Positions 10,501-19,064 of a DNA stretch of 54,970 bases are shown piece by piece. This stretch comes from an uncultured Bacillota bacterium (GTDB lineage Bacteria; Bacillota; Dethiobacteria; DTU022; UBA8154). A program made the translations under genes and the position numbers. Below the pieces are notes generated by a model. It had not been told where the DNA came from. It saw only the letters and a program-made list of their open reading frames with translations, and did not search any database. The stretch spans positions 1 to 54,970 of the forward strand of contig CALJJZ010000063.1 in assembly GCA_937973635.1 (NCBI GenBank), given 5' to 3'. The first letter of the stretch is position 1. Each line of letters opens with the position of its first letter.

Positions 10501-11019
10501 TTACCAGTTTTGCGGAGGCTCCAGGGAAACTCTGATTCTGCCTGTAACAGGCGTAATAATTATATAGCGTTTGGCATTACCAGATTTTAAAATTACAGTT
10601 CCTCCGCTGCCGGGACGGCCCAAAGAATTAAAGGTAAGGGTAGGAGGCAATCCGCTGAATGTTGTACTTCCTTCAAATGTCACCGTATCCGGGAGATAAA
10701 CATGCCGCTTGCCCTGCGGCGTAGTTAAAGTATAACGGTTCAAATAAATATAAAACTCCGCTTTACACTGGTTGCCGCTTTTGACTGCTTCCTGGCGCAG
10801 CAGGCGTAACTCTGAAGCCAGCTGCCGCGATGCTGTATCCAGGTGCCAGGAGGAAGTTAAAAAGTTTAAACGGGGCACAGCCAGCGCAGCCAAAAGAGAC
10901 AGCAAGGCAAGAACTGCGATCAATTCAACCAGAACAAAGCCGGTAGCTGCTGCAGGGAAAAATGCTCTTCGCAAAACAAATGTAGAAGCGGCTGGCAGCG
11001 GTTTTTTATGTGCCGGCAC
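10501..11019 (-). CDS. GspH/FimT-type pseudopilin
   Basis: A type IV-like prepilin with an unusually long leader of about 27 residues, a cleavage site G|FVLVE with Glu at +5, and a hydrophobic helix (FVLVELIAVLALLSLLAALA). A GspH-like beta-rich domain follows, with SGNQCKAEFYIYLNRYTL and GGTVILKSGNAKRYIIITP. Such minor pilins prime assembly of a pilus or pseudopilus at the membrane. The start is GTG with GGGAGG upstream. It is the last gene of the gspF-gspI-gspJ-gspK-gspH run. Processing would need a prepilin peptidase, and the one in this locus is truncated. Confidence 0.8.
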   Translation of the reverse strand: MPAHKKPLPAASTFVLRRAFFPAAATGFVLVELIAVLALLSLLAALAVPRLNFLTSSWHLDTASRQLASELRLLRQEAVKSGNQCKAEFYIYLNRYTLTTPQGKRHVYLPDTVTFEGSTTFSGLPPTLTFNSLGRPGSGGTVILKSGNAKRYIIITPVTGRIRVSLEPPQNW

Positions 11020-11025
11020 TTTAGC

Positions 11026-11940
11026 TTACCTCCCCTCCCGGCGGATCATAGTTCCCGGCACTACGGGCAAAACACGATAAAGGTAAGCTTCCTGAGGGAA
11101 TATGTCAGCTGTAAATTGAAAACCATGGGGGAAATCATATACTCCCGGCCCCAGCAGCAAACGAGAACTAACGTCCACAGCCCCTTCCTGGAGATAAACA
11201 CGCAGTGGAGAAGCAGCAGGATGAGAAAGATGGAGCATTCCTGCCGAGGGGGACAAAATAATCCTGCCATAAAAAACTACAACTTCCGCCTGTAGTTCAA
11301 GGTATTCTTCCAGATAAAGGCTGGTAGGCAGACCTAAAAAATAAAGTTGTTTGGCGGCAAAAATCGCCCTGCCGTTTCCTTCTTCCAACCTGTAAAGGGA
11401 AAGGGGCAAAGCAAGAGGGGCAGAGCCCAGCAGGACAGTTTCTATTCCTGAGATATGTTCTCCCGGTGTAATCCTGCCGTCTGATGGGTCATACCAGCCT
11501 AAAAATGTACCGTCTGTACCGGCAGGCCGGGAAGGAATAGATTGGAAGTGTAAGTTAAGTGACTCCACCGCTGTTCCTACCGTGCCTGTGGAAGAGATAT
11601 TAACGTGGCGACTACCGTTTTCCTTAGCTTCTGCTTCCACTTTTAAGCTAACAATGCCACCGCCAAAGGGGAAGCTTTTATGGCCTACATAGAACGAGTC
11701 ACCGTGCTTTAATAAAGCCAAAGCAACTTCCATACCCGTTTCCGCCAGGTAATAGGCCTGCAAACTGTCTCGCTGGTTGGCAGCAATTTTCAAATCTATG
11801 CTATTCAGATCTACCAGAGTTGCGCTAAGAAATAAAAGGGCAGCGCAGATTATTAACACAAAAACCAGGATCGATCCTTTTTGCGAGGATAAAATGCCAC
11901 GGGCCGGCCCTTTCCTTGTAGAGCAACTTTTATAAAGCAT
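11026..11940 (-). CDS. PilX/GspK-like pseudopilin
   Basis: The N-terminus reads QKG|SILVFVLIICAALLFLSA, a prepilin-like cleavage site without Glu at +5, followed by LQAYYLAETGMEVALALL, a typical PilX/GspK helix. The remaining 200 residues are predicted beta-rich and resemble no domain I recognise. I chose the ATG at 11940, which overlaps the end of the gspJ-like gene by 11 bases; a longer frame would extend 96 bases into it. The assignment to GspK rather than PilX is by layout only. Confidence 0.7.
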   Translation of the reverse strand: MLYKSCSTRKGPARGILSSQKGSILVFVLIICAALLFLSATLVDLNSIDLKIAANQRDSLQAYYLAETGMEVALALLKHGDSFYVGHKSFPFGGGIVSLKVEAEAKENGSRHVNISSTGTVGTAVESLNLHFQSIPSRPAGTDGTFLGWYDPSDGRITPGEHISGIETVLLGSAPLALPLSLYRLEEGNGRAIFAAKQLYFLGLPTSLYLEEYLELQAEVVVFYGRIILSPSAGMLHLSHPAASPLRVYLQEGAVDVSSRLLLGPGVYDFPHGFQFTADIFPQEAYLYRVLPVVPGTMIRREGR

Positions 11941-12448
11941 GGCCCATATTCTGGAGAAGCACGGCAGAGCGCAAACGATAATTTTGCCGGCTTGCAGTTC
12001 CTTCAATTGTATAATATAGTATTTTCCGCGTAGCATCCCAATTAAAATAAAGAGATTCGATATCGTATGCTATTTTTGTCTCGGTATTATTGATGAGAAG
12101 AACAATTTCTTTGTTTTTTTGTTTAATTGCATAGCGATTTGCATCGTCTGGAAGTCTGTACCTAACTTCACTCGCTCCATTTAACTGCAGATTAATGGCA
12201 TGACGCATCTCCCTGTTAATAAAATCTCCGGCCAAACGTATATTTTGTTGCAGATCCAAAAGCATAAGACCATGATGATAGGTATTCAGACCAAGCTGAT
12301 AAAAAGTAAAAACAGAGACTAAGACCAGGGAGAAGACAGCAATTGTTGCCAGGATTTCCAGGATCGTAAATCCTTTTTGCCCAGCTAAAGAGTGCATATA
12401 AGCGGCAAACCTTTTGCTCCGTTTATTTTTCGCCCATAAAAAAAGCAT
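11930..12448 (-). CDS. PilW/GspJ-like pseudopilin
   Basis: A prepilin with cleavage motif QKG|FTILE (Glu at +5) and hydrophobic helix ILATIAVFSLVLVSVFTFYQ. A GspJ/PilW-type domain follows, with DLQQNIRLAGDFINREMRHA. The start is placed at the ATG at 12448, because GGGAGG is spaced 9 bases from it; the gene then overlaps the end of the gspI-like gene by 26 bases. Mature length is about 135 aa, short for PilW. Confidence 0.78.
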   Translation of the reverse strand: MLFLWAKNKRSKRFAAYMHSLAGQKGFTILEILATIAVFSLVLVSVFTFYQLGLNTYHHGLMLLDLQQNIRLAGDFINREMRHAINLQLNGASEVRYRLPDDANRYAIKQKNKEIVLLINNTETKIAYDIESLYFNWDATRKILYYTIEGTASRQNYRLRSAVLLQNMGHAL

Positions 12449-12854
12449 ACCTGGCAACCTCCCTGTTTTTTTCCTGCAAAACAACTACTTCCAGGGTCAG
12501 CCCCTTTAGCATATATTCATTAAATTCCAAAACATCACAGGTTATCGTAAAATAGCGTGTAAACCCCGGGAATCCAGGCACGTCTTCCGGCGTTGAAGAA
12601 ACAAATCCCGGGCAAAAAGAAGACCCAACCTCTAGTTCCGAGCCGATAGCCAATAATTCAGCATAGGAACAGGCACGCAGTTCTTCCATTGTCTCCTGGG
12701 CCAGGGATGCTGCCTGGCTGATACGGCCTGACTGTATGCTCGCAGCATAGCCGCTAAGAAAAAGGTTGATAAAAGAAAGAATTACAGTAGCAAGGATTGC
12801 CATACTAAAAACCACTTCCAGCAACGTCAGTCCCTCCTCAGCGGACTGCTGCAT
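12423..12854 (-). CDS. PilV/GspI-like pseudopilin
   Basis: Short leader (MQQSAEE) and cleavage site G|LTLLE with Glu at +5, then the hydrophobic helix VVFSMAILATVILSFINLFL. A small C-terminal domain follows, starting SQAASLAQETMEELRA, as in PilV/GspI minor pilins. AGGAGG lies 10 bases before the ATG. It follows the gspF-like gene by 29 bases in the same operon. Confidence 0.8.
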   Translation of the reverse strand: MQQSAEEGLTLLEVVFSMAILATVILSFINLFLSGYAASIQSGRISQAASLAQETMEELRACSYAELLAIGSELEVGSSFCPGFVSSTPEDVPGFPGFTRYFTITCDVLEFNEYMLKGLTLEVVVLQEKNREVARYAFFMGEK

Positions 12855-12883: not shown

Positions 12884-13984
12884 TCAGAGATAAAATTCAA
12901 AAACAGTAAAAAGGGGGATAAAAACTGCAAGCACTATGGCTCCAACTACCAAAGACAGGAAAACAATTAAAACAGGTTCCAACAAAGACCCCAGTCTGTC
13001 CACCGCATAATTAACTTCTGTTTCAAAAAGGTTGGCTGCTCGGGATAGCATTTCTTCGAGCTTTCCCGACTGCTCACCAACATTGGTCATACTGATAAGA
13101 AGCATGGGAAAAAAATCCGTTGCCTTAAGGGCTGCAGCCACCGTTTCCCCTCTGACAATATGCTCTCTAATTATATCAATGCGCCTGCCGAATAGATGAC
13201 TGGAGACCACGTTCTTTGCCTGTTCCAGCGCTGTTAAAAGTGCTATGCCATTCCCCAGCATGGTACTAAGAGTGCGGCAGAAGCGAGCCAAAATTAATTT
13301 GCGCTTAAGTTGCCCCACAATGGGCAAGTGTAAGATCACAGAATCACGATAACAAGACCCTCTTTTTGTCTTCAAAAATATAGCTAAAGCAAAATACACA
13401 ACAATTATGCTCATAAATATAATCAGCCAGTAAGCGCGCATCGCCTCGCCTGTGGACAGCAAGATGCGCGTGGCAAAGGGTAATTCTATTTTTAAACTTT
13501 CGAAAACACTTGTAAAAGCAGGCAAAATAAAAGTAAGCAAAAAAAAGACCAGGACGAGAATTGCCAGAATTACAAATTTGGGATAAGCAGTAGCCGTCTT
13601 GATTTTCTGTTCCAGCTCCCATTTTCTTTGAAAATAAAGTGCCAGCAGATGCATAGAATGGTCAAGATCCCCGCTTATTTCTCCTGCTTCCACCATGCTT
13701 ATGAAAAAAGACGGGAAGAGCTCTTTCTCCCTGGAAAAAGCAGCTGCCAGAGTATTACCCCGTTCCACTTCTTTGATCACTGCAAGAATTCCCGCTTTAA
13801 GACGAGGATGCACAGCCTGTCGCTGTAAGATCTCCAAAGCGGCTAAAACGGAAATACCGGCAGACAACATGGTAGCAAACTGTTGAGAAAAAGTCATTAA
13901 TTCTTGTAGTCCCGGCAGCCTAAAAGTAAAGACTAGTTGCCTCAAAACAGTTACAACGCGGTGTAGGGAAGGGAATCTCTCCAA
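12884..13984 (-). CDS. GspF/PilC-type inner membrane platform protein
   Basis: The protein has two tandem T2SF domains, each starting with a helical bundle and ending in membrane helices: FSQQFATMLSAGISVLAALEIL near residues 28-49, and FCRTLSTMLGNGIALLTALEQA in the second half. Three transmembrane segments are visible (about 140-160, 190-210, 340-362). Such proteins form the membrane platform on which GspE/PilB-type ATPases drive pilin polymerisation. At 366 aa it is slightly shorter than typical PilC because the N-terminus is brief. The start is TTG with AGGAGA upstream. Confidence 0.88.
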   Translation of the reverse strand: MERFPSLHRVVTVLRQLVFTFRLPGLQELMTFSQQFATMLSAGISVLAALEILQRQAVHPRLKAGILAVIKEVERGNTLAAAFSREKELFPSFFISMVEAGEISGDLDHSMHLLALYFQRKWELEQKIKTATAYPKFVILAILVLVFFLLTFILPAFTSVFESLKIELPFATRILLSTGEAMRAYWLIIFMSIIVVYFALAIFLKTKRGSCYRDSVILHLPIVGQLKRKLILARFCRTLSTMLGNGIALLTALEQAKNVVSSHLFGRRIDIIREHIVRGETVAAALKATDFFPMLLISMTNVGEQSGKLEEMLSRAANLFETEVNYAVDRLGSLLEPVLIVFLSLVVGAIVLAVFIPLFTVFEFYL

Positions 13985-14072: not shown

Positions 14073-15281
14073 TTAAAGAAAAGCTTTATTTGCAAAGGCA
14101 AGGGCTTCCAAATAACATTTTATTATTTCTTTCTCTTTTAAATTAAGTTTGAGGGCACAAGAGAAAGCTTCATCAAAAATTCCTCGTTCATAAGCCAATA
14201 CAAGTTTATAAACATCTCCAAAGAGGCTTTGCTCTCCTAAAAGGGCTCTTTTTAAATCTTTGGCCAGAGGCAATTCTTGCAGGATCTGCGCAAGGGGTTG
14301 ATCTAAAAAGGCATCAAGTAATGAAAAAAGGCCCATTAAAAACAGATCCTGGCTTCTGTTTTTCAAGCCAATATGTGGAGCAATAAGTTCGCAGAACCTG
14401 GCGCGGCTGACTGCTGTAATTATAAGTTCTTCAGGTTTGTCTTCACCGATCTTTTTTAAAGCAAGCAAGGAAAACCATTTGCTGATTTCGCGCTGACCTA
14501 AAAGGGTAAGGGCTTGTTTAATATTATGGATCTCGATTTCAAAATGAAATGCTGCTGAATTTATGAATTTTAGCAACTTATAGGAGAGGGAGAGGTCACT
14601 TTTTATCAAACTTTCTATCCGTGGGAAATCGATATCCGGCCTGTTAATTTCCTGCAAAATGCGTAAATAGTTCAGCTTAAAAACAGGGATATCTCTGCCT
14701 GAGACAATAACCGGCTTGCTGAAAAAAAAACCCTGGAAATATGAATACCCCAGACTAATCGCTTCTTCGAGATCTTCCCTTTTTTCGACCTTCTCAGCCA
14801 GGTACTTTATGTTTGGACGGTTGACCAGCTTTATTATTTCTTTTCTCCTCTCCCCTCTGGTGTTTAGAAAATCCACTTTGATAATATCTGCCAGATCCAG
14901 CAGAGGACGAAACCTCTCTGCATATGCAAAATCATCAAGGGCCAGTAGATAGCCTTCATCCTTTATTTTTTTACACACATTTAACAGTACTTCATTCGGC
15001 TCCACATTTTCCAATACCTCTATGATGACCCTATCCCGGGGTAGAAGTGAAGTTACACCGGCTTCCAGCAGTTTGGCCGTGAAATTAATAAAAGCTTTAT
15101 GGCCGCGTGTCAGGTTTTCCAGACCAAACAATAATAGGCTGTCGCTTATCAGTTCAGAAGAAGCCTGGTCTCCGTTCAAAGCGGTATAGATATTGGCACT
15201 ACTGGATCTGTAAAGCAGTTCATAGGCAAATAATTTTAGTCTGCGATCAAAAATGGGCTGCCGCGCCAGATAAGTTTCCAT
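14073..15281 (-). CDS. EAL and HDOD domain signalling protein (YuxH/CdgJ type)
   Basis: An N-terminal EAL-related domain (about residues 1-200) is followed by an HDOD domain (about 200-400). EAL landmarks are present: YELLYR, the Asn in AFINF, the Glu in VIIEVLE, LALDDF, IIKVDF, LAEKVE and FQGFFFSKP. However, the loop after DDF reads AYAERF instead of the usual G(T/S)G. Phosphodiesterase activity is therefore doubtful. Family members regulate motility and type IV pili, which fits its place among pseudopilus genes. The ATG at 15281 is chosen for its excellent GGAGGTG 7 bases upstream; the frame is open for another 132 bases but without support. The IS110 relic lies directly upstream. Confidence 0.87.
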   Translation of the reverse strand: METYLARQPIFDRRLKLFAYELLYRSSSANIYTALNGDQASSELISDSLLLFGLENLTRGHKAFINFTAKLLEAGVTSLLPRDRVIIEVLENVEPNEVLLNVCKKIKDEGYLLALDDFAYAERFRPLLDLADIIKVDFLNTRGERRKEIIKLVNRPNIKYLAEKVEKREDLEEAISLGYSYFQGFFFSKPVIVSGRDIPVFKLNYLRILQEINRPDIDFPRIESLIKSDLSLSYKLLKFINSAAFHFEIEIHNIKQALTLLGQREISKWFSLLALKKIGEDKPEELIITAVSRARFCELIAPHIGLKNRSQDLFLMGLFSLLDAFLDQPLAQILQELPLAKDLKRALLGEQSLFGDVYKLVLAYERGIFDEAFSCALKLNLKEKEIIKCYLEALAFANKAFL

Positions 15282-15394
15282 AAAGTCACCTCCTATCTCT
15301 TCTTTTGAAGAGTATCTTTTAATATCTCCGTCATTCTTAGAATTACGAAGAATTTGGAACCTTGGTTTAAAATCTTTTATTGTAACAGTGCCGG

Positions 15395-15674
15395 GTGGAG
15401 AGCTTGTGGGCAACCCTGTCCTGGAGCCCCTGGAGGGTTATTCATAAATCTATGCCCACAGCATATCTACGGCCTTGTGTATTTAGGCTAATCTTGTTAA
15501 TGCAGCCGGTCTTATCCCAAAACTCACCCTATCATGTCTCGCTGGGTCTATGCCCTTACATTCCTTCGTTCTGCTTTAGGGATAAAAGCAGAGATAGTTT
15601 TAAGCTTGTATGCTGCCTCAGTGGGCTAATGGAGGTGAACTCCTTATCTCCGCTCTATCGGCATGTTTGACTGT
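15395..15674 (-). ncRNA. Non-coding 3' end of the IS110 relic, candidate bridge-RNA region
   Basis: About 280 bases after the transposase stop contain no gene. The stretch has hairpin potential, including a perfect 8-bp stem TCTGCTTT/AAAGCAGA at 15570-15592, and a doubled CCTGGAG motif at 15419-15434. In IS110-family elements a non-coding end encodes the bridge RNA that pairs with donor and target DNA. In the IS1111 subgroup it lies downstream of the transposase. Assignment to that RNA is inferred from position and length only. The remaining 113 bases to the EAL-HDOD start show nothing recognisable. Confidence 0.35.
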
Positions 15675-16935
15675 TTATGCAGCTTGCTTCATCTGGTTCT
15701 TTCTGAACTCACCCAAAACTAATTCTGCTTTGTATTCCATTTGCTTTTTCATCAGGTTGTAGATGACGGTCACTATCTTCTTTGAGATTACTACAAGTGC
15801 TTGGATTATTTGGGCGTGTTTTTAAGTATTGATACAACTCCTTCATCTCGGCGTTTACGGCAACCATGGTTCTGGCCATTTGGTAAAGCACATTCCTTAG
15901 ATTCTTCCGCCCTCGCTTCGATATGGAGGTCCCACTAATATTTTTTCCTGAGCTGTCTTCAATCAGGTTGTAGCCTGCCATCTTGCTTATCTGACGGGGA
16001 TGGTCAAATCTCAAGGGATCTCCAATCTCACCGAAGAAACTGGCGGCTGTCACTATGCCTATGCCTGGAATACTAAGAATTGTTCCTTTCATCCCTGTTT
16101 CGGTCAGGGCTTCTTCTATGGCATTTTCTATCTGTTCAAGTTGCTTTGTTAACATTTCTAATTCTCAAGCATGAGCTCTAATTTTAGTTTTGCTGATGCT
16201 AAGCCATATTTTACGCCGATAGATTCTTTTGCTGTCTCTACAAGTTGCCTAGCTTTTTTGAGACCAACGCTTTTTTTTACGGCCTTTCTTATCTCGGCCA
16301 GCACTCCATTTACACCAAGCTCTAGAATTAGTGACGGAAAGGGGCAGGACTTCATGATCTGCATGGATGTTTTACCCTTAAATGGCTGATACTGCTACAA
16401 ACTCAGGAAAGTACTCATCTAATACTGTAGTAATGGTATTCTTTAGGGCATTGTGTCTTTTCATCAAGCTTACTCTTGAGTTGGACAGCACTCTTAGTTC
16501 TGCAAATACATCCTGGGGCATGTATACGTCATAATATCTACCGTCACGGATTAATCTTGCTATGGTCAATGCATCTTTTTTGTCATTCTTCGTAGGGCTG
16601 TTATCGTCAAGTTCTTTGGCCCGCTTAGTATGATAAGGGTTGACCATTACTACTGTTATTCTGTTTGAAATTAGAAAGTTCACAAGGGGTTTCCAGTAAT
16701 GACCCGTCGGTTCCATGCCCACGATAACTTTATCCAGTTTCTTGAGCTTGCAAATATTTTGGATACTTTTTAGAATCTTTTCAAAGCCATTTTTATCATT
16801 CCTGAATTTTAGGGCTTTGCCTAATTCCAAGCCACGGTAATCTGTGAATCTTGCCCATTGAAGCTTCTTTGCAATATCGACTCCAACTATTAGTGTGCTT
16901 GTTGTTATTGCTTCTAGTTTCTGAGAGTTAAATAT
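15675..16935 (-). pseudogene. IS110-family transposase, inactivated by frameshifts
   Basis: Translation in three joined frames gives a nearly full-length IS110 transposase. The N-terminal DEDD domain begins TLIVGVDIAKK and includes IVGMEPTGHYW. The C-terminal Transposase_20 domain includes SIPGIGIVTAASFFGEIGD and ISKRGRKNLRN, and the protein ends EFRKNQMKQAA. Frame breaks occur near 16380-16392, 16158-16163 and 15803-15810. The codon at the expected start position (16935-16933), 10 bases after GGAGG, is ATA instead of ATG. Four independent lesions make it a dead copy. Three shorter open frames in this interval are its fragments and not separate genes. Confidence 0.92.
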
Positions 16936-16941
16936 TTGCTT

Positions 16942-17004
16942 ATAACCTCCGGCTTATGGTTTTTGTGCGTGTCGCAGCACACATTAATCATAACTGGAGG
17001 TTAT
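16942..17004 (-). repeat. Inverted repeat that can mask the transposase ribosome binding site
   Basis: Perfect 9-bp arms ATAACCTCC (16942-16950) and GGAGGTTAT (16996-17004) on the plus strand enclose further partly complementary sequence, including TTATG/CATAA and GTGTG/CACGC pairs. In the transposase mRNA the downstream arm contains the GGAGG ribosome binding site. Transcripts entering from outside would therefore fold and hide it, a known way for insertion sequences to avoid translation from neighbouring promoters. Confidence 0.6.
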
Positions 17005-17053: not shown

Positions 17054-18238
17054 TTAGAAGGCATAGTAGGCTTCACGAATCACTTCCTGCAGGGTTGTAT
17101 CTGCCTGGGCTGCCCGTTCCAGGCCATCTTGCAGTAGAGGCTTCATCCCCCTGGATAGAGCATAATTGCGGATTTCCTGTCCACTGTGGGAATGGTGGAT
17201 CAGATTACGTATACCCTCGTCTACGATCATTATTTCATGTATGGCAGTACGCCCTTTAAAGCCTGTATAGTTACACTTTTCACAGCCTCTGCCCCGGTAA
17301 AATTCCGGTTCTTTGCTGTTCCCACATATCTCAGCGTAAAGGGAAAGGGCGGCGGGGGAAGGATTTTCCCGTTCCAGGCAATTTCGGCAGTTTAAACGAA
17401 TTAAACGCTGTGAGACGACACCAACCAGCGAAGAATTAAGCATATAGGGCTCTACCCCCATATCCAGAAGCCTCGTCACAGCCCGTGGTGCGTCACTGGT
17501 GTGTAAGGTGGAAAAGACCAGATGGCCGGTTAGCGCAGCCCTGGCAGCAATCTCCGCAGTTTCCGTATCGCGAATTTCACCCACCATGATGACATTGGGA
17601 TCCTGTCGTAAGACGGTACGCAGAGCACGGGCAAAAGTAAGACCCGTTTTGGGGTTTACCTGGACCTGGTTGACATGCTTAAGCCGGTATTCTACCGGGT
17701 CCTCTACGGTAATTGTATTAATCTCTGGGCTGCTGATATGACGGAGCGTACTATATAGCGTAGTAGTTTTTCCACAACCAGTTGGCCCGGTTACCAGGAT
17801 CATACCCCAAGCATGGGCAAGAAAATGAAGATATTTGCTTTTGTTTTGAGCATTAAACCCCAACGTATCTAGCGCCATAATTAAGGCTTCGGGGTTTAGA
17901 ATACGTAGTACAACCTTTTCCCCATAGATAACAGGAAGAGTAGAAGCCCGAATATTAATCTCCTGCCCTTCTCTGTTCAGGTAAATATTCCCATCCTGGG
18001 GCAACCTCTTCTCGGTTATATCCATCCCTGCCATAATCTTAAGCCGGGAGATAATTTGCAACATAACCTCCCTGGCATAGGTACGCAACGGATAAAGGAC
18101 ACCATCTATGCGTAACCTGACAGAGAGGCCTTCTTCTGCCGGTTCCAGATGTATGTCACTGGCTCCTCTACGAATCCCTTCCAGGATCATTTCATTAACA
18201 AGTTCAATAATAAGGTCTTCTTCTTTTTTGCTCATCAA
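17054..18238 (-). CDS. GspE/PilB-type secretion ATPase
   Basis: This hexameric ATPase would power pilus or pseudopilus assembly from the cytoplasm. Walker A GPTGCGKT lies at residues 151-158, the Asp box in ITVEDPVEYRL, Walker B in NVIMVGEIRD and the His box in LVFSTLHTSDAP. A tetra-cysteine zinc motif, CRNC and CEKC, follows near residues 283 and 319. At 394 aa it lacks the N-terminal MshEN domain of most PilB/GspE proteins and starts directly with the SDIHLEP segment. The next gene upstream is the remnant of a prepilin peptidase, 15 bases away. The IS110 relic lies just downstream. Confidence 0.9.
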   Translation of the reverse strand: MMSKKEEDLIIELVNEMILEGIRRGASDIHLEPAEEGLSVRLRIDGVLYPLRTYAREVMLQIISRLKIMAGMDITEKRLPQDGNIYLNREGQEINIRASTLPVIYGEKVVLRILNPEALIMALDTLGFNAQNKSKYLHFLAHAWGMILVTGPTGCGKTTTLYSTLRHISSPEINTITVEDPVEYRLKHVNQVQVNPKTGLTFARALRTVLRQDPNVIMVGEIRDTETAEIAARAALTGHLVFSTLHTSDAPRAVTRLLDMGVEPYMLNSSLVGVVSQRLIRLNCRNCLERENPSPAALSLYAEICGNSKEPEFYRGRGCEKCNYTGFKGRTAIHEIMIVDEGIRNLIHHSHSGQEIRNYALSRGMKPLLQDGLERAAQADTTLQEVIREAYYAF

Positions 18239-18253
18239 ATTCCTCTTTCACGA

Positions 18254-18544
18254 CTACATATAGAGCACATAGCAGTGCCATATTTCCAAACCCCAGAATT
18301 TGGTAATAATAAAAGCGATTATGAGGAAAGGAGCGAAAGGCAGAGGGTCGCTACGCCTTTTTTTGCCTGCAAAGATAAGCACAAGACCAACTGCAGCCCC
18401 AAGTAAGAAGGACAGCAGAAAGACAACAAGCACCATGGGCCATCCCGAAGCCAAGCCGAGGACAGCCATGAGTTTAATATCTCCGCTATCCATGCCCCCT
18501 CTGCTCAATACGGCAATCAGGGAAAAAAGCCCCCCGCCGGTCCA
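18254..18544 (-). pseudogene. Prepilin peptidase (A24) C-terminal remnant
   Basis: The sequence GGMDSGDIKLMAVLG near the start carries the second catalytic aspartate of the A24 aspartic prepilin peptidases (GxGDxKL). Two membrane helices and the KRRSDPLPFAPFL segment of the family C-terminus follow. The N-terminal 150 or so residues, with the zinc-binding N-methyltransferase domain and the first catalytic Asp, are missing. Homology stops at about 18544, and 17 bases further is the stop codon of yqeG. A deletion or rearrangement probably joined yqeG to the middle of this gene. A TTG at 18508 could start an 84-aa protein, but it would lack one catalytic Asp. Confidence 0.8.
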
Positions 18545-18560
18545 TGAATTATAATTAAAG

Positions 18561-19064
18561 TTACTTCAAGTGTCCTTTGCGGCGCAGGTTGTAAAGAATA
18601 AACTTCTCCACCTGGCGCATAATTTTCGTGCCAATAAATTCCTGTTTTTTTAGGGGTCGGACAAGGATTGTATAAAGTCCCAAACGGTTACCACCCAAAA
18701 TATCAGTAAAAACCTGATCACCTACTACTGCTGCCTGGGAAGGTTTGATTTTCATCAGTTCAAGGGCTTTCCGAAAAGCGCGTCTGCGCGGCTTTACTGC
18801 CTGCCAGATAAAAGGTATGCTGAAGATCCCTGCCAGTGTTTTTCCTCTTCTGGGGTGGTTGTTGGAAACTATGCAGACAGAAAACCCGGCTTCTTTAATC
18901 TTTTGTAACCAGGCTACAGCTTCGGGGTAGTGAGCATCTTCATTCCAGGGAACAAGTGTATTATCAAGATCTGCAATGATCCCTTTAATTCCTTTTTCTT
19001 TCAGTTGTTTCAGATCTATTTGCTGTACACTATTAACGTATTGCCGCGGGTAAAGAAGGCGCAA
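18561..19064 (-). CDS. YqeG family HAD-type phosphatase
   Basis: HAD superfamily subclass IIIA phosphatase of the YqeG type, 167 aa. Motif I DLDNTLV lies near residues 32-38, motif II is VSNN, the motif III lysine is in VKPRRRAF, and motif IV is GDQVFTDILGGN. YqeG in Bacillus is encoded with aroE and yqeH; here it follows sigK instead. The substrate is not established. The start is TTG with GGAGG 9 bases upstream. Its stop codon borders the truncated prepilin peptidase. Confidence 0.9.
   Translation of the reverse strand: MRLLYPRQYVNSVQQIDLKQLKEKGIKGIIADLDNTLVPWNEDAHYPEAVAWLQKIKEAGFSVCIVSNNHPRRGKTLAGIFSIPFIWQAVKPRRRAFRKALELMKIKPSQAAVVGDQVFTDILGGNRLGLYTILVRPLKKQEFIGTKIMRQVEKFILYNLRRKGHLK

Follow-up and report, generated by a model that had tools for sequence, protein, structure and literature searches.

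The window, a 54,970-nucleotide stretch of an uncultured Bacillota genome (contig CALJJZ010000063.1 of assembly GCA_937973635.1, here G000), carries a pilus-type locus in which only the 3′ half of the resident prepilin peptidase gene is left. This half gene is most likely a pseudogene that arose by 5′ deletion and not a new short protein. The interpretation that we consider probable is that the deletion occurred in a pilus system in patchy decay, where a second peptidase had made the resident one dispensable. The features of the locus are listed in Table 1.

Table 1. Features of the peptidase junction, the window pilus locus, and the second pilus locus of G000
Feature	Position	Strand	Remarks
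yqeG, HAD-IIIA phosphatase	18561..19064	(-)	intact upstream neighbor, also the neighbor in relatives
Junction, yqeG stop to first peptidase codons common to relatives	18539..18560	(-)	22 bases
C-terminal remnant of A24 prepilin peptidase (most likely a pseudogene)	18254..18541	(-)	motif, profile, and alignment evidence
gspE/pilB/comGA-type assembly ATPase	17054..18238	(-)	intact
IS110-family transposase	15709..16953	(-)	at least three broken frames; in the major-pilin interval of G002/G003
EAL-HDOD protein gene	14073..15413	(-)	adjoins IS110; not found here in the relatives compared
gspF/pilC-type platform protein	12884..13984	(-)	intact
Minor pilin (PilV/GspI/ComGE-like)	12423..12854	(-)	class III signal G/LTLLEVV
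Minor pilin (HpsC/ComGF-like)	11930..12484	(-)	class III signal G/FTILEIL
Minor pilin (PilX/GspK-like)	11026..12036	(-)	
Minor pilin (GspH/ComGD-like)	10501..11019	(-)	class III signal G/FVLVELI
Second type IV pilus locus, pilC-sigma-pilM-N-O-pilB-pilT-pilD	G000:C24 1-7860		

The peptidase remnant and its junction with yqeG

The open frame in the translated region 18254-18568(-) (...GGGLFSLIAVLSRGGMDSGDIKLMAVLGL...LYM*) contains the 3′-terminal ~94 codons of an A24 prepilin peptidase gene and lacks the first-Asp region. It matches Peptidase_A24 (PF01478) with 34.4 bits (cut-off, 26.5) at profile positions 55-104 of 104 only, PF06750 (A24_N) has no match in the window locus, and the remnant holds no Cys motif (CxxC-n-CxxC). 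The translation and the profile positions bear out the sequence-only reading, made before any database search, that the second Asp region alone remains and that the methyltransferase domain and the first Asp are gone. The first catalytic Asp, a few residues before IPN/IPD, is present in 31 of the 33 sequences and missing from the G000 remnant and from a second truncated copy, G014_C1. The second Asp is kept in an altered motif: GxGD has become DSGD where GGGD is expected, and all 32 other sequences compared have G[GA]GD. According to one report, the active site of prepilin peptidases consists of two Asp residues, both of which are needed, and the zinc ion and four cysteines serve methylation, not cleavage (PMC3584216). 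With the first Asp and the CxxC domain missing and the GxGD motif altered, activity of the remnant alone is not to be expected.

The nearest relative of the remnant is the intact copy of G004, with 74% identity. In the C-terminal alignment (32 rows, 30 untruncated), ~15 columns are invariant among the untruncated rows; the remnant alters one of these 15 (the first Gly of GxGD, to Asp) and G014_C1 alters two. Among the 30 untruncated rows, G003, G024, and G014_C78 also alter one invariant column each, and at a looser column threshold of 93% several untruncated rows alter two or three. As a sign of lost constraint in the remnant, the altered invariant columns are suggestive, not strong.

Homology of the remnant to the G004 copy begins at the GGG codons (18538 downward), and the stop codon of yqeG lies at 18561-18563. 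The break is therefore 22 bases from the yqeG stop, not the 17 given initially. The junction bases may include a few codons of leftover peptidase (YNS, common to G004). By arithmetic on coordinates, G004 and G002 have ~571 and ~545 bp of extra DNA, respectively, at this place, and the ~550-570 bp missing from G000 correspond to the intergenic region, the CxxC domain, and the first-Asp region. The missing 5′ half was found nowhere else in the G000 assembly, a draft of 2.56 Mb in 98 contigs that is 96% complete, since PF06750 scores above its cut-off on contig C24 only.

Comparison of the yqeG-gspE junction in relatives, which the sequence-only reading had proposed, revealed the full gene. In G002 and G004, yqeG is followed by a full two-domain, two-Asp peptidase and then by gspE; G003 has a full two-Asp peptidase gene, split over two contigs; and in G001 (69% complete) the gene is interrupted by one TAG, and no second copy was found. 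Of the five genomes examined in the genus, G000 alone has the truncated form. Conservation of the short form in many relatives, which had been named as grounds for regarding it as a genuine protein, was thus not found in the genus, and a conserved short protein was ruled out, because G002, G003, and G004 carry the full gene and G001 a copy with one TAG. In G001 (contig C187), both yqeG and the adjoining peptidase gene contain an in-frame TAG, at positions occupied by Q and W in relatives; these codons might reflect decay, errors, or a changed code.

The window pilus locus lacks a major pilin

The frames and profiles agree with the initial description of four pilin-like genes, gspE, and gspF as open. 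Judged as a Com/T2SS-like/T4P locus, the window has the ATPase, the platform protein, and the minor pilins, and the major pilin is missing. G002 (GFTLLELLVVVVIVGILTA...) and G003 (GFTLVELMVVVVIIGILTA...) have a major pilin gene between gspE and gspF; in the window, this interval contains no major pilin and is occupied instead by the broken IS110 transposase and the EAL-HDOD gene. The missing fifth (major) pilin, the two genes in its interval, and the DSGD motif had not been recognized in the sequence-only reading.

A PF07963 search of the whole 96%-complete G000 genome with E values up to 10 detected no major-type pilin; its three matches were all minor pilins of the window, the best with 24.9 bits. 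The N_methyl scores of major pilins in G002, G003, G004, and G010 are 39.6, 39.8, 43.2, and 32.1 bits, respectively, and because major pilins elsewhere score in this range (32.1-43.2 bits), one in G000 would probably have been seen if it had been assembled. The major pilins of G002 and G003, searched weakly against the window and the C24 and C10 stretches, gave only chance matches or minor-pilin N-termini. No match to the secretin profile (PF00263), which was used as the criterion for a T2SS or diderm T4P, was found in the G000 genome. ComEC is present on contig C53, and a GspE scan of viral contigs gave one distant locus.

A full-length peptidase in a second, damaged pilus locus

PF01478 matches G000 in three places, namely the remnant, the complete gene on C24, and a copy of Tad type on C10. 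The search for a full-length A24 peptidase suggested by the sequence-only reading thus succeeded, at C24:7123-7860, which encodes the sole two-domain peptidase with a methyltransferase domain in G000. It matches PF06750 with 115.2 bits and PF01478 with 86.1 bits, and has the four Cys and two Asp of a bifunctional PilD (CPAC...CRGC, DLEHQIIPN, and GGGDVK). A sequence search of the PDB with this PilD returned only a chance zinc-finger match. In the peptidase tree (33 rows, G001 not included), the remnant groups with the locus copy of G004 (94/89), and the C24 enzyme falls in another PilD clade (100/99) with G014_C78, G008, and four others. The rows of the G000 remnant (39% filled) and G014_C1 (47%) are under half filled, so their branch lengths are rough. 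The C10 stretch of G000 is a Tad-type locus with its own ATPase and a short A24 peptidase.

The genes around the C24 peptidase are damaged. In its pilB, two frameshifts are present and 261 residues of the G004 PilB, the Walker A motif among them, are missing; pilC and pilM have one frameshift each, and the frames of pilT and pilD are open. Sequencing errors in G+C-rich DNA could explain the single-base breaks, but not the loss of 261 residues. The G+C content of this locus, 61% versus 53% in its neighbors, might point to a recent foreign origin, but the related module of G004 is also G+C-rich (57%, versus 51% for the remainder of that locus). With only 61% identity to the pilT of both G004 and G017, the C24 pilT does not seem to be the copy inherited vertically within the genus. 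Contamination was ruled out as the origin of C24: its glyS is 78% identical to that of G004, close to the 83% of yqeG. In G004 (C36:40000-55979), a pilT-pilC-sigma-pilM-N-O-pilB-major pilin module lies downstream of yqeG-pilD-gspE; the same stretch encodes a large LysM-containing protein that looks secretin-like by eye, and the genome has a single two-domain peptidase.

Taken over the whole assembly, a single intact ATPase of PilB/GspE type (in the window) and one intact two-domain peptidase (on C24) are present in G000, and no major pilin was detected. The sequence-only reading had offered either another peptidase or decay of the locus; both are supported, the former by the C24 peptidase and the latter by the loss of the major pilin, and they are not exclusive. 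We propose that the C24 peptidase made the resident enzyme dispensable, so that its loss was tolerated, that any prepilins still made would be cut in trans by the C24 enzyme, and that the filament system as a whole may be undergoing piece-by-piece dismantling. Processing in trans is plausible: one study describes many prepilin peptidases as also acting, with some exceptions, on the substrates of further filament systems within their species (PMC4471445). In these respects, the case of G000 looks like ordinary reductive evolution by gene loss.

Divergence of the remaining pilus genes

The remaining genes of G000 were compared with those of G002 and G003. In all pairs dS was at least 0.71 and in some it was undefined; because synonymous sites are saturated, the dN/dS test is weak, and relative nonsynonymous rates were used alone. 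The pN/pS values of G000 versus G002/G003 were 0.42-0.52 for the minor pilins, 0.39-0.43 for gspF, 0.31-0.33 for pepP, and 0.18-0.21 for gspE, as against 0.37-0.40, 0.33, 0.26, and 0.16, respectively, between G002 and G003. The values are therefore raised in G000 by a similar factor for all, including pepP, which lies outside the pilus genes. By arithmetic, the nonsynonymous branch of G000 is 0.178 for pepP, 0.099 for gspE, 0.273 for gspF, and 0.23-0.35 for the minor pilins; the ratios of branch to G002-G003 distance are 0.8-1.4, with pepP at 0.9, and no gene is clearly raised. Within the limits of this weak, saturated test, nothing indicates that selection on the remaining genes has been relaxed for long, which points either to recent losses or to continued use of what remains. 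With gspE, gspF, and the four minor pilins open and diverging not clearly faster than pepP, the locus is unlike an old wreck. The earlier phrase "starting to decay" fell short in that decay is further on, the major pilin being gone, whereas the open state of the other genes and their divergence, not clearly raised, speak against simple decay.

Occurrence of the second peptidase in the family

Among the 23 genomes of the family set (G000-G022), a peptidase of the C24 type is found in three (G000, G008, and G014), which belong to three genera. None of these three has an intact locus-type peptidase, as against 19 of the 20 genomes without the C24 type (Fisher p ~0.002, that is 4/1771, calculated by hand with phylogeny ignored); in G008, whose completeness is 79%, a locus-type copy may just have escaped assembly. 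The exception among the 20 is G001, whose locus-type assignment is by position beside yqeG; its peptidase gene is cut and no second copy was found, so loss is not tied to redundancy alone. That every genome with the other type lacks an intact resident copy appears to be an interesting regularity, which rests on three genomes.

G014, from another genus, resembles G000. Its contig C1 has a peptidase remnant of 126 codons, truncated at the 5′ side and without the first Asp; directly upstream is an open frame that looks PilO-like by reading, and downstream is an open series of pilB-pilT-gspF-major pilin-minor pilins. A full peptidase is encoded on its contig C78 within another pilus locus. G000 and G014 provide two independent natural cases in which the resident peptidase was lost where a second was present, and promiscuity of these enzymes predicts such loss in genomes holding a second one. 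Only tentatively do we generalize that pilin processing has been taken over recurrently by a second peptidase. All three C24-type carriers among the 23 genomes would have lost the intact resident copy, twice by a 5′ loss that left a C-terminal piece before the ATPase gene, and in G000 the second peptidase would have outlived its own filament genes to become the only full two-domain peptidase left to process the window's minor pilins.

Alternative explanations

The pilus locus might instead be fully functional, with the C24 peptidase acting in trans and the major pilin located elsewhere or unassembled, so that the peptidase was swapped and nothing is decaying. The full two-Asp, four-Cys enzyme on C24 is consistent with this, as are the open gspE, gspF, and minor pilin genes, the presence of ComEC, which makes DNA uptake conceivable, and G014, where a 5′-truncated locus peptidase similarly lies beside an otherwise open locus that includes the major pilin and a full C78 peptidase is present. 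We nevertheless regard it as rather unlikely, for no major-type pilin occurs in the G000 assembly and its slot is filled by the broken IS110 and the EAL-HDOD gene.

An assembly artefact or strain mixture, in which the contig leaves out 550-570 bp of a gene that is actually complete, is suggested by the draft state of the assembly (98 contigs, no reads) and is improbable for several reasons; the deletion may also be specific to the strain. The missing half is on no other contig, the remnant has a private change of the invariant motif glycine, and its branch is long (partly because only 39% of the columns are filled). The order of genes agrees with relatives on either side; the series gspE ... 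gspF-pilins-pepP-efp is common to G000, G002, and G003, which speaks for a correct join of the contig. A new role for the fragment as a real short protein, for example as a small membrane protein that acts with gspE or as half of a peptidase completed by another subunit, would account for the open frame just upstream of gspE and for a similar C-terminal piece kept independently in G014. It is the least credible of these alternatives and highly improbable: no ATG with a sensibly placed ribosome-binding site was seen by eye, both remnants alter otherwise invariant glycines, the catalytic Asp pair is incomplete, and the short form is missing from the rest of the genus. A pseudogene in a decaying pilus system with a second peptidase thus remains our preferred reading.

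Comparison with known prepilin peptidases

The remnant corresponds to the C-terminal part of the bifunctional A24 peptidases PilD/ComC/GspO (PF06750 + PF01478), from which it differs in lacking the CxxC domain and the first Asp and in the change of GxGD to DSGD. The short peptidases TadV/CpaA/FppA and FlaK likewise have no N-terminal methyltransferase domain, but they keep both Asp, and with its first Asp missing the remnant cannot be counted among them. A further parallel is Escherichia coli, where GspO and PppA are present and one may substitute for the other (PMC4971541); there too a genome has more than one peptidase with overlapping substrates, whereas in G000 one of the copies has been destroyed and the locus of its substrates is incomplete as well. 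Loci that seem complete by their ATPase, platform protein, and minor pilins can therefore lack the processing enzyme and the major pilin.

A different short form, without the CxxC domain only and with both Asp kept, is conserved within a single clade (90/86) of the family, formed by the peptidases of G007, G005, G015, G009, G019, G010, G016, G021, and G022 together with the G014_C1 remnant. The pilus-locus peptidases of these nine genomes all keep both Asp, and the CxxC motif is found in none of the nine. PF06750 has no match in eight of the genomes; in G005 the peptidase gene alone gives a weak match of 22.9 bits. The pilins in the eight locus stretches scanned from this clade (G016 left out) keep the GFTLxE-type signal.
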